Shown here: piece by piece, positions 33,001 to 42,244 of the stretch | Layout of the letters: the number at the start of each line of letters is the position of its first letter | Position numbering within the stretch: the stretch's first letter is position 1 | Source: Desulforapulum autotrophicum | GTDB lineage: Bacteria > Desulfobacterota > Desulfobacteria > Desulfobacterales > Desulfolunaceae | Assembly: GCA_020723285.1 (NCBI GenBank) | Contig: DYJE01000001.1 | Span: 62,001 to 126,000, forward strand | Direction: 5' to 3' | DNA: 64,000 bases | Translations under genes and position numbers: made by a program | The notes under the pieces: generated by a model | Databases searched by the model: none | Told to the model about the DNA's origin: nothing | Seen by the model: the letters and a program-made list of their open reading frames with translations, nothing else

Positions 33001-33139
33001 CGTTCATGGCCTGCCCTCCTGACGAGGGAGTCTGCAACGAACGATAAAAAAACGAAAGATAAAAAATGACGTGTGTCTCGCCATGCCACATATACATCAA
33101 CCTGATTTACCCCCTTCACAACCGGCCCAAGGAGGCTTC

Positions 33140-33640
33140 ATGGACCAGACCTGGAAAAAATGCAGCATCTGCAAAAAAGATATCCCCTATGATTCCAAAT
33201 ATTACGAGTGTTCTGTCTCAACCTGCACAGGCAAACGCACAGGGCTTGTTTTCTGTTCGGTGGCCTGCTGGGATGTGCATGTCCCCGGAGCGCGGCACAG
33301 ACCCGACGCCGGCGCAATTTCCATGACAGCACCGTCACGGCGTCAGGTGGAATATGAGATGAAGATGGCCGAGGACAAGGCGGCGGCAAAGACCCCTGAA
33401 ACCCGGCGAGTGGCCATCCGCCCCGAAACGAACCGTGAAGACGTAGAAACCGATGTGCTGGTGGTGGTTTCCAAAGTGAAGAAATACATTAAGGACAAGG
33501 CGGACATGAACACGGCCGGAGCCGTCATGGACGCCTTGACGGAGCACGTCATCGCCATCTGCGACCGCGCCATTGAAAACGCCCGCGAGGACGGGCGAAA
33601 AACCGTGCTTGAACGGGACGTTCCCAATCCTTACCGCTGA
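33140..33640 (+). CDS. Zinc-finger protein with C-terminal histone fold
   Basis: A 166-residue protein starting at the ATG with AAGGAGG five bases upstream. Residues about 8-55 form a cysteine/histidine array (CSIC, CSVSTC, FCSVACWDVH, ARH) of a two-zinc cross-brace type similar to ZZ or MYND fingers. A linker rich in Ala, Lys and Arg follows. Residues about 105-162 match archaeal histones: a long central helix, then AIENAREDGRKTVLERDV, aligning with AIxxARxxGRKTIxxxDI of HMfB including the GRKT loop. The histone fold implies DNA binding and dimerization. The last 10 bases overlap the 3' end of the convergent radical SAM gene. Zinc-finger histones have been predicted in surveys of prokaryotic histones; function is unknown. 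Confidence 0.85.
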   Translation: MDQTWKKCSICKKDIPYDSKYYECSVSTCTGKRTGLVFCSVACWDVHVPGARHRPDAGAISMTAPSRRQVEYEMKMAEDKAAAKTPETRRVAIRPETNREDVETDVLVVVSKVKKYIKDKADMNTAGAVMDALTEHVIAICDRAIENAREDGRKTVLERDVPNPYR

Positions 33641-39498: not shown

Positions 39499-41004
39499 TC
39501 ATTTCCTGGTCCAAAGACCTTTGATCAAAGGGACAAGATCGTCGGTCACCGTGTACCGGATCTTTTTTTTAAGTATCAGCGCCAGCATGGAAAACCCGGT
39601 TTTCAGACTGGCTTTGACATTCCCCGAATGTTTCGATTCTCCGCCGATCCTTCCGTGATACGACACGGGGATCTCGATGATCCGCAGACCGTGACGAATG
39701 GGTTCGATGATCATCTCCGGGGAAAAAGACGGGCCGTCTGCCGAAAGACCGCCGCTGATCCGGCGGTAGGCGTCGGACCAGATGGCCCTGAAGGTGCAGC
39801 CCACATCGGTGAGCCGGGGTTCGTTCCGGCTCCACCAGAGGATCTCGATGATTTTGGCCACCGCCACATTCCCGACGCGAAGAAACAGGTTCATGTTGGC
39901 CCCCTGCTGAATCATCTGCTTGGTGGTCCGCGTGCCGAGAACCATGTCGGCGTCTTTCAGGTATTCCAGGAGTTTGCCCAGATCCCTTGATTTGAAGGAA
40001 CCGTCGGCCTCGGTAAGCACCAGGATATCCCCCGTGGCTTTTTCCATGCCCCAGCGCAGGGCATGACCGTATCCCTTAAGGTCCGCCGAATGTACTTTCG
40101 CCCCTTTTTCAGCGGCGATTTCCGCTGTCCTGTCCGACGACCGGTTGTCGGCCACGATGATTTCATGCACCAGGCCTTTGAAATCGTCAATCACATGACC
40201 GATGGAATCTTCCTCGTTGAACGCCGGAATAACCAGACTGACGGTCTTTTCATGAAACTTCGAGGAACGGACCATGTAACAGGCCTGGTTCAGATCATCC
40301 GCAGTGTTCACATTCACATACCCGCCGGTAAAAAAGAAAGGTCGCACGGTCTTTCCCCCGCTGATCATGGCGGACACACCGTCGATCAATTCCTTTTTTC
40401 CGGTGCGATGTGATACAGGCATTTCCCGGATAAAGTCAAACACTTCCGGCATAAAAAGTAAGGTCCCGCAACCCAGGAATCCGTTCATCACCTTATCCGG
40501 TTTTTCCATCACCGAAACCACGGTGCCGTCTTCAATTTCCAGGGCGTAGTTTTTACGGATTTCAAAGGGATTGGCCGCCTGTTTCACCGCGCATACACAG
40601 GTATAATCGCCATGATCCGTACTGACCAGACCGCTTAGCGTGGATGCGTGGTACAGTTCATCCCCGAGCATCAGGCAGAACGGACCCCGGATATACGGCT
40701 GCGCGAGAAGAACGCCCTCTGCCAGACCTTCCGCCGGATCGTTATGTCGGATCAGGGTGATGTTCACGTCTTTCGGACAGGCGGTTCGGATCTCCTTTTC
40801 CACCTCTGCCGTATTGTCTCCCGTGATGATGAAAATCTCACGGATCCCCATTTCACAATTCATCAGAAGGATATTCCGCATCAGAAGGGACACCCCGTCA
40901 ACCGTGAGCAGAACCTTGGATCTGCTTTTCGTTTCGGGATAAAGCCGTGTGCCCGCACCTGCGGCTGCAATGATTCCAACCATTTCAGCGGCTTTGTCAG
41001 TCAT
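39499..41004 (-). CDS. Nucleotidyltransferase fused to a DPM1-like family 2 glycosyltransferase
   Basis: A 501-residue bifunctional protein from the ATG at 41004, which overlaps the GT87-like gene by eight bases and follows a G-rich ribosome binding site. Residues 5-240 are an NTP-transferase (AAGAGTRLYPETKSRSKVLL signature, LMLGDELYH, VMEKPDK) that makes a nucleotide-sugar. Residues 255-480 are a GT2 like dolichyl-phosphate mannose synthase (SLVIPAFNEEDSIGHV, IVADNRSSDRT, LTEADGSF, RIGGESK). The combination suggests synthesis of a nucleotide-sugar and its transfer to a polyprenyl phosphate. The sugar cannot be read from the sequence. Confidence 0.87.
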   Translation of the reverse strand: MTDKAAEMVGIIAAAGAGTRLYPETKSRSKVLLTVDGVSLLMRNILLMNCEMGIREIFIITGDNTAEVEKEIRTACPKDVNITLIRHNDPAEGLAEGVLLAQPYIRGPFCLMLGDELYHASTLSGLVSTDHGDYTCVCAVKQAANPFEIRKNYALEIEDGTVVSVMEKPDKVMNGFLGCGTLLFMPEVFDFIREMPVSHRTGKKELIDGVSAMISGGKTVRPFFFTGGYVNVNTADDLNQACYMVRSSKFHEKTVSLVIPAFNEEDSIGHVIDDFKGLVHEIIVADNRSSDRTAEIAAEKGAKVHSADLKGYGHALRWGMEKATGDILVLTEADGSFKSRDLGKLLEYLKDADMVLGTRTTKQMIQQGANMNLFLRVGNVAVAKIIEILWWSRNEPRLTDVGCTFRAIWSDAYRRISGGLSADGPSFSPEMIIEPIRHGLRIIEIPVSYHGRIGGESKHSGNVKASLKTGFSMLALILKKKIRYTVTDDLVPLIKGLWTRK

Positions 41005-42244
41005 GATCCCCCCTTGCATCCCCGATCATTTTTTCACCCTGCCCCGCCCAATGATTCACCACAAGATAAACCAGGAGGTTGATTCCGATAAACTGAAAAG
41101 ACACCACGTAAAAAAAGCGTGAAACAAACCATGACGCCATGTCACACCCTGAGGATTTCAACAGTGTTTCCAGGGGAAGACGGCATAATGTCATAAAAAA
41201 AAGAGACGCTGCCAAAAGTTTTCGTTCTTCGTTTTTCAGTTCGGAAAACCAGGGAAGCGCAGCAAGAAAAAGCGTTCCATGATCGAATCTGAAGTTGAAA
41301 CCGATACAAAGAACCAGGACACAGGCGAACGCTTTTACAAAAAAAAACCGGTCCGCATTCACAGCGCCCTGGTTTACGAATATCTGAAAGCAGACAAATA
41401 AAAACGCACAACCGTAAAGCCCGGCAAGGGTCAGAGTCAAGGGAAAAACCATGGTTTTGGGCATCAAACCGCCCACGGCAAGTTTGTTGAAAAAATCCTG
41501 CCATCCTGCAAACCCGTCCGACACATACGGATAGCCGATGCCGTGAAGTCGCATGCGTCCGTATCCTTCACTCATGGCTTTTATCATGTCCACATGAGTG
41601 TCCCACCCGAAAAGTGCCAGGGAAACCATCACAAGACCGAATAAAAAGATCATGCTCCAGGAAAAGAGCCGGTACTTCCGGGTCAGGAGGGGAACCGCTA
41701 TAAGCGGTGCGAGAAACACTTTGAAAACAACGGCAAGACTCAAAAAAAACCCGGCGGCGCAATCCATTTTCCGTTCAGTGAAATACAGGACAGCCATCAG
41801 GCATGCCGCCACTTCCACGTAGATATTGAGATAACACAGCTGAGCCAGCACAAAAGAAAAAGCCATGACAAAAAAAGCGTATCTTGCCGGATTGTCAGGG
41901 CTGAAAAAACCCGCGCCCATTTTCTTCAGCAGCGAGGTACACAACGCAGCCAGCGCGAGGGTCTGGACACATTTCAAAGCAACTGCCGGACCGACAGGCA
42001 GAAAAAGGGTTGGGCCATAAGCTGCCACAGCCAGCGGAAAATTGTAAAAAACCGTGTTTTCCGGAAAGAAAACACCGGTCCGAAGATAGCTTGAAAACCA
42101 GGCGTGGGCCATGTGGTAATCCACTCCGAAAAGGAACCGGAGTTTGAAGAGTACAAAATAAAGGGTGATGATCATGCCCGACGCCGCAATGAAGACCATC
42201 AGGATTTCAAGGCTCTTCCAGATTTTTCCCCTGTGGGTGTCCAT
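40997..42244 (-). CDS. GT87-like polyprenyl-phosphate-sugar-dependent membrane glycosyltransferase
   Basis: A roughly 415-residue protein with about ten hydrophobic helices, similar in layout to DUF2029/GT87 mannosyltransferases. The first periplasmic loop carries GVDYHMAHAWFSSYL and NFPLAVAAYGPT, comparable with the acidic loop and PP-like segment of that family. I prefer the ATG at 42244 with GAGG eight bases upstream; a GTG at 42253 is in frame. It is the first gene of the six-gene operon. GT87 assignment is moderate; a generic GT-C is the alternative. Confidence 0.75.
   Translation of the reverse strand: MDTHRGKIWKSLEILMVFIAASGMIITLYFVLFKLRFLFGVDYHMAHAWFSSYLRTGVFFPENTVFYNFPLAVAAYGPTLFLPVGPAVALKCVQTLALAALCTSLLKKMGAGFFSPDNPARYAFFVMAFSFVLAQLCYLNIYVEVAACLMAVLYFTERKMDCAAGFFLSLAVVFKVFLAPLIAVPLLTRKYRLFSWSMIFLFGLVMVSLALFGWDTHVDMIKAMSEGYGRMRLHGIGYPYVSDGFAGWQDFFNKLAVGGLMPKTMVFPLTLTLAGLYGCAFLFVCFQIFVNQGAVNADRFFFVKAFACVLVLCIGFNFRFDHGTLFLAALPWFSELKNEERKLLAASLFFMTLCRLPLETLLKSSGCDMASWFVSRFFYVVSFQFIGINLLVYLVVNHWAGQGEKMIGDARGDHD

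Follow-up and report, generated by a model that had tools for sequence, protein, structure and literature searches.

What work a protein with a zinc finger at one end and a histone fold at the other does in a member of the Desulfobacterota, and where its gene came from, are the questions raised by an open reading frame of Desulforapulum autotrophicum. It lies within the window, by which we mean the whole stretch of 64,000 nucleotides analysed. The gene at 33140-33640 (+ strand) encodes 166 amino acids, and both domains that an initial annotation had read in it, a Cys/His finger and a histone fold, are confirmed, with a flexible linker between them. The suspicion that such zinc-finger histones were already a published type was also right: the gene is a newly found member of the ZZ histones, which Schwab et al. 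2024, in their passages on this group, define by the finger plus histone architecture and place mostly in Proteobacteria (PMC11390915). Our literature searches found nothing on bacterial histones in Desulfobacterota, no DNA-binding experiment on a ZZ histone, and no tested ZZ-histone function. The features of the gene are:

33129..33135, + strand: Shine-Dalgarno sequence AAGGAGG, 4 nt upstream of the ATG (from the sequence)
33140..33640, + strand: ZZ histone gene, 166 aa (open reading frame; family alignment of 84 rows)
33152..33316, + strand: predicted two-zinc ZZ-like finger, residues 5-59 (ligand columns; model of the finger alone; weak ZZ fold match)
33404..33424, + strand: linker motif RRVAIRP, residues 89-95 (family pattern R[RK][IV][IVA])
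33452..33622, + strand: predicted histone fold, residues 105-161 (sequence match, profile, structure model)
33631..33640, no strand: 10-base 3'-to-3' overlap with the convergent radical-SAM gene (minus strand, stop at 33631)

The ribosome binding site had been called perfect, which holds for its sequence (anti-Shine-Dalgarno duplex energy −11.4 kcal/mol), but the spacer is at the short end. The overlap with the convergent gene is as it had been described, and the name glycosylation operon fits the genes beyond it, which encode the radical-SAM protein, a GT2, two TPR proteins, an NTase-GT2 and a GT87. The NTase-GT2 gene, at 39499-41019 on the minus strand, is a nucleotidyltransferase fused to a family-2 glycosyltransferase, in a block shared with the two TPR proteins and the radical-SAM protein. 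Upstream of the ZZ histone gene is an O-methyltransferase gene with a relative in six of seven genomes of the host family. A search of about 6 kb around these relatives for 11 further window genes found none, so the locus is not conserved. Elsewhere in the host genome, a dsrA gene (C67:86894-88222) scores above a curated cut-off reached by none of 14 control genomes; the host therefore probably has dissimilatory sulfite reductase.

By sequence search, residues 105-161 align without gaps to HBb (Bd0055) of Bdellovibrio with an E-value of 1.2 x 10−12, and the next matches are HLp, HTkC and HmvA. A profile of 84 relatives (the alignment omits L040, which has a run of Ns, and L059, which has a stop inside the histone) hits HBb at E = 7.6 x 10−19, an 'archaeal histone A' at 0.004 and HMfB at 0.023. 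A search against the HMfB and Bd0055 families, proposed as a check, is thus strong for Bd0055 and weak for HMfB. Structure prediction, another of the proposed checks, yielded the histone fold: AlphaFold2, run on the 84-row alignment (mean pLDDT 89), places helices at residues 110-121 and 127-150 and a three-residue helix turn at 158-160. The model has HBb as its top fold match (Foldseek TM 0.95 of target; VIA Z 9.6, rmsd 1.3, 63 residues aligned), and in VIA it matches HLp and HTkC with Z of 8.0 and 7.8. The E-value against HBb, the conservation in 84 rows and the structure model together exclude a chance match. The pattern AIxxARxxGRKT[VI]xxxD[VI] quoted in the initial annotation is at residues 144-161, but its term 'archaeal-type' is loose, since the Pfam family CBFD_NFYB_HMF matches residues 129-161 alone and scores 16 bits where the cut-off is 21.4, and the nearest solved relative is the bacterial HBb. 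Judged by sequence and model, the histone half is closest to the bacterial-dimer alpha3 type, nearer to HBb than to archaeal nucleosomal histones.

Ten HBb residues, T8 and S24 among them, are listed as important DNA contacts in the published descriptions that we drew on. When they are placed on the window protein through its sequence alignment with HBb, eight are identical (S111, K112, K114, K118, N124, K154, T155 and R159), and T8 and S24 are replaced by V110 and A126. The family has A or V in the V110 column, and S in 81 of 84 rows in the A126 column. The RD clamp, R153-D160, is kept in all 84 rows. The dimer surface is likewise kept across the family, as the annotation had asked of homologs: the L133 column is L in 80 rows and I in 4, the V113, V137 and V161 columns are hydrophobic, and the I140 column is mostly hydrophobic, with E in 5 rows. 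R49 and N53, two tetramer residues of the FtF histone HLp, correspond to N147 and D151 in the window protein, a loss expected of dimer-type histones. Its histone half has a net charge of 0 (family mean +1.6), so DNA affinity may be weak.

The finger has eight putative zinc ligands, C8, C11, C24, C29, C39, C43, H47 and H53, which bear out the two-zinc Cys/His array described at residues 8-55; zinc is predicted on this basis. Seven of the ligand columns are invariant in the 84 rows, and the C39 column is C in 82 and D in 2. Modelled alone, the finger has a mean pLDDT of 90. It is basic (net charge +3; family mean +3.9), and its conserved non-ligand surface comprises K12, V26, S27, T28, R33, F38, P49 and R/K54. 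Foldseek ranks zinc domains of p62, KCMF1 and plant BIG first, all weakly (E of 0.096 and up); the top entry is the p62 ZZ domain, with E = 0.096 and probability 0.72. In VIA, ZZ-named entries have Z of at most 4.2, level with small zinc folds of other kinds, and all rows stay below 5. At E ≤ 1, eight family members match 13 Pfam families; ZZ (PF00569) is not one of these, the weak matches include FLZ/FCS-type and C1 fingers, and the finger profile found nothing under E = 1 among solved structures by sequence. Because the structural matches are weak and Pfam ZZ is absent, 'ZZ-like' is a fair description of the modelled shape and unproven as a statement of descent.

The linker carries a recurrent motif. 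R[RK][IV][IVA] occurs in 42 of 84 linkers, compared with a mean of 1.05 and a maximum of 5 in 500 shuffles, although the rows are related and so these are not 42 independent cases. Two fused proteins whose linkers do not have it, L067 and L079, have VIRR placed after the histone instead, and finger-only proteins of 63-73 residues stop before any such motif. From this pattern we regard R[RK][IV][IVA] as a candidate binding motif.

The window gene is the sole histone found in the host genome (single-sequence search; profile, E ≤ 0.1), where one further partial match is weak (E = 0.42) and falls outside the histone part. It stands alone in a sample of 58 genomes from the host family and order. 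In the class sample 4 of 291 genomes have a match, with the finger fusion in the window's genome alone, and the other 287 have none; in the phylum sample the finger is present in 8 of 395 genomes, the window's included. A scan of named genomes with one finger peptide gave 225 relatives, and the 80 of these that were retained are mostly Bdellovibrionota and Myxococcota by title. We found no ZZ histone in phages, in plasmids or in viral contigs (for the last, one single-sequence scan that reaches close relatives only); the plasmid scan returned one haloarchaeal plasmid-borne histone, matching residues 111-161.

In a concatenated tree of 120 columns, whose bootstraps had not settled, the window gene belongs to a clade of 34 rows (support 100/96), and 30 of the 33 other rows are titled or classed as Bdellovibrionota. 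Its place inside this clade, beside L019 and L021, is not firm (89/68). The finger tree pairs it with L016 (95/97), and the histone part alone leaves its placement open (thinned tree, AU test). Because the tree sets the gene inside a Bdellovibrionota clade, lateral transfer is likely, and it probably reached the host from a Bdellovibrionota-type donor, lateral gain being the simplest reading of the sequence relationships. Its GC3 resembles that of its neighbors, so there is no sign of a recent gain, and an empty site is not demonstrable because synteny with relatives is lost. We also considered a chimera with finger and histone from different lineages, since a first histone tree, at odds with the finger tree, had put the window among stand-alone histones (98/97). 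We dropped this idea because no position of the window was supported in a thinned tree and a common placement with L015, L016 and L023 is not rejected by an AU test (p = 0.447). One further member of the Bdellovibrionota clade, L026, comes from a record titled Streptomyces griseus (MAG), which is probably a mislabelled bin.

Sequence comparison further shows the finger to be an autonomous module, which also exists without a histone. The class of L049, whose named members are Bacteriovoracaceae and other Bdellovibrionota, comprises 58 genomes in our sample; by a tally of the match table, 14 have only the fused gene, 6 the fused gene and a separate histone, 16 a finger-only protein and a separate histone, 18 a histone only, and 4 neither. 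We examined the sequences of 14 of the 16 finger-only proteins (L139-L151 and L153). All are without a histone, and all 14 have the tail [VTPA][IL][ILV]R[RK] within their last 20 residues. In Myxococcota, the finger is present in 104 of 329 sampled genomes, at 109 places, of which we examined 90 (the best 30 and 60 selected). Here a script scored 73 places as fused genes, inspection by eye added five (L282, L290, L298, L324 and L329), ten are finger-only proteins of 63-73 residues (L285, L293, L301 and L312-L318), L305 looks frameshifted, and L319 runs off its contig. Six genomes with a finger-only protein have no histone by profile (G389, G593, G1097, G924, G1100 and G851; G389 has a completeness of 100, and G593 a completeness of 96 with contamination of 9), and in two more, G1082 and G1003, the histone matches are marginal and half-length. 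Because finger-only proteins occur in genomes without a detected histone, the finger seems to have work apart from the histone. The ZZ histone family thus appears as a set of exchangeable parts within which the window gene is ordinary, and its natural finger-only and plain-histone versions offer clean parts for testing each half.

Two variants of this architecture are worth recording. Four genomes (G1054, G822, G1068 and G860) have a fused ZZ histone together with a second, finger-only paralog of 63-70 residues (L312-L315) with the signature C[ST]VA[SA]CN...PTARHR[KN]A. In L324 (G886), a protein of 249 residues, visual inspection suggests a finger with two histone domains in tandem behind it; Pfam matches neither half.

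In the class of L049 some fused genes sit where a stand-alone histone would be. Stand-alone histones there start M-[TSE]-...-LVV behind a ribosome-binding site. Among their stretches from 31 genomes, 21 have an FKBP-type isomerase and 4 an upstream GAF-GGDEF gene; the remaining six mostly cover a few hundred bases. Pfam confirms the FKBP and GAF-GGDEF neighbors at one stand-alone and one fused locus each. (The loci in which an FKBP-type peptidyl-prolyl isomerase gene adjoins a stand-alone histone include L188-L201.) The fused gene of L041 is directly behind the FKBP gene, in the stand-alone histone's place, and in L073, L088, L129 and L152 the fused gene is downstream of the GGDEF gene, with one gene between them in the last three. 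The stand-alone start can survive within a fused frame, as is seen by comparing stand-alone L158 (CAACAAAGGAGCTAaatATG, MTDGNTEKEVLVV) with fused L073 (AAGAAAAGGAGCTAgatATG, MTDGNTEKEVLVV), whose histones are sisters in the first histone tree (100/87).

An in-frame ATG with a ribosome-binding site precedes the histone in 12 of the 14 fused-only genomes (all except G743 and G776), and in none of the six fused genomes with a separate histone, whose linkers are without any Met. Because these six genomes and the two exceptions all fall in a single clade, the number of independent events behind the contrast is far below 20. Our criterion was an ATG 7-20 codons before the fold with a duplex energy of at most −4.9, a limit chosen after the values were seen. 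One of the twelve genes, L059 (G708), has a stop inside the histone. An internal start is present too in L092, though its genome has two more histone matches, and in L008, found outside this class. We compared 13 genes (the twelve and L092) with synonymous shuffles: the values are 0.021 for L059, 0.039 for L073 and 0.05 for L068, and for the other ten they range from 0.10 to 0.66, so that these sites are not singled out. Since this control is not decisive and the energy limit is post hoc, the argument for internal starts rests on position and synteny. It suggests that one fused gene may give two histone products, one fingered and one plain; the change may have been a fusion or a split. Among the literature matches listed, none had a title that bore on internal starts or on a fusion of genes in Bdellovibrio histones. 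For the window gene itself we rejected an internal start: the candidate, an ATG at codon 74, is equalled by 36% of synonymous shuffles, and the close homologs L014 and L016 are without a linker ATG.

Taken jointly, these patterns allow a tentative reading, which we hold to be a real possibility somewhat short of probable: a free-standing finger module with a non-chromatin role would have been welded on more than one occasion to dimer-type histones; in the class of L049 the weld would keep the histone's ribosome-binding site and ATG and so give a fingered and a plain histone; and the window gene would be a laterally acquired, single-product member that is its host's only histone. Should the internal starts be functional, two histone forms from one gene would be a means by which bacteria tune chromatin.

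Gene neighborhoods point to no partner by association: when ORFs of at least 80 residues were clustered from 113 loci, a few of them included twice, with flanks of at most 6 kb and in some cases only 1.5 kb, no gene family was common to more than 10 loci. The ZZ histone gene is near flagellar genes in L019, L021, L024, L030 and L035; relatives of FliJ, FlgD or the ATPase are present in four or five of these loci, and Pfam identifies FliJ in L024, FlgD in L021 and a FliI/T3SS-type ATPase in L035.

What, then, does the window protein do? On the strength of its sequence, the models and the analogy with HBb, we consider it reasonably probable that it is a non-specific DNA-bending homodimer with recruiting fingers, acting as a low-abundance adaptor. 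Two histone halves would join through their central helices into a homodimer, which, like HBb, would bind DNA non-specifically at minor grooves and bend it. A flexible linker of about 50 residues, with its short basic-aliphatic motif, would tether two copies of the basic finger, and each two-zinc finger may recruit or anchor a protein partner or a nucleic acid, not histone tails. A DNA bender with recruiting fingers is likelier to be such an adaptor, or a targeted DNA-bending protein, than a bulk nucleoid packager. A variant of this explanation, a special case of it that we find possible if on balance doubtful, makes the finger a nucleic-acid-binding module that gives the histone a preference for certain sequences or structures. 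This would suit its basic character, its conserved non-ligand surface and its occurrence alone in proteins of 63-73 residues, but the ligands of ZZ, MYND and similar cross-brace fingers are mostly proteins.

That the gene instead encodes the general nucleoid-packaging histone of its host, with a finger that merely tunes binding, is unlikely. It is the only histone-fold gene found there, keeps most DNA-contact residues and has a strong ribosome-binding site (−11.4 kcal/mol), and in the published account of Bdellovibrio chromatin HBb is a major chromatin protein (PMC10627809). However, the histone half is neutral, packaging in the 287 class genomes without a match must be independent of ZZ histones, and Schwab et al. 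report few transcripts and little protein for the B. bacteriovorus ZZ histone (PMC11390915). Presumably this histone is Bd3044, which the account of Bdellovibrio chromatin calls a less abundant histone-fold protein (PMC10627809). We think it very unlikely that the finger reads histone tails as eukaryotic ZZ domains do, targeting other histones, even though it has a weak fold likeness to the ZZ domains of p62, HERC2 and ZZZ3 and 33 of the 49 ZZ-histone genomes searched have one or more additional histone-fold matches, including some weak ones. The host has no other histone that we could find, finger-only proteins occur in the six genomes without a detected histone, and Schwab et al., where they discuss this point, doubt tail reading and report that H3-pocket residues are not conserved (PMC11390915); the suggestion of a chromatin 'reader' in the initial annotation thus finds no support. 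Its other suggestions, a bridge on DNA or targeting by way of the finger, may hold. Least probable of all is that the gene is a passenger, from a mis-binned contig or gained without function. No other fused case is present among the 291 sampled class genomes, but its contig is 677 kb long in an assembly with an estimated contamination of 0.65%, its composition matches that of its neighbors, and it has an unbroken reading frame and retains each of the eight zinc ligands and 8 of the 10 contact residues. A host in which no histone besides the ZZ histone was detected removes confusion with HBb.

The window protein resembles several known systems in part. With the eukaryotic ZZ domains of p62, HERC2 and ZZZ3 it shares two zinc sites (predicted here) and a weak fold match, but there is no Pfam ZZ match here, and its spacing, C-x4-C / C-x3-C / H-x5-H, is unlike that usual in ZZ domains. 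It has the second half of the fold and the GRKT loop in common with archaeal nucleosomal histones such as HMfB, from which it differs in falling below the Pfam cut-off, in its profile E-value of 0.023 and in its shorter third helix. The FtF histones HLp (9qt0) and HTkC (9f2c) have the same alpha3 histone fold; of the HLp residues, R49 and N53 are not kept and R55, also the RD-clamp residue, is. HBb/Bd0055 (PDB 8cmp, 8fvx, 9ezz and 9f0e) is closer, with the one-turn third helix, the RD clamp and 8 of 10 DNA contacts in common, but it is without finger or linker and is abundant in the reports that we drew on, whereas the window histone half is neutral in charge. The closest likeness is to the ZZ histones as Schwab et al. 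2024 describe them (for example, Haliangium D0LYE7). The C4 ligands C41 and C43 given in their profile misfit the conserved pair here, C39 and C43, which are four residues apart; moreover, the window's host has no second histone that we found, carries dsrA, and belongs to a class that, as sampled, is almost entirely without the family. What the window protein shares with them is the architecture itself, an N-terminal two-zinc finger with C4 and C2H2 sites followed by a C-terminal, bacterial-dimer-like alpha3 histone.
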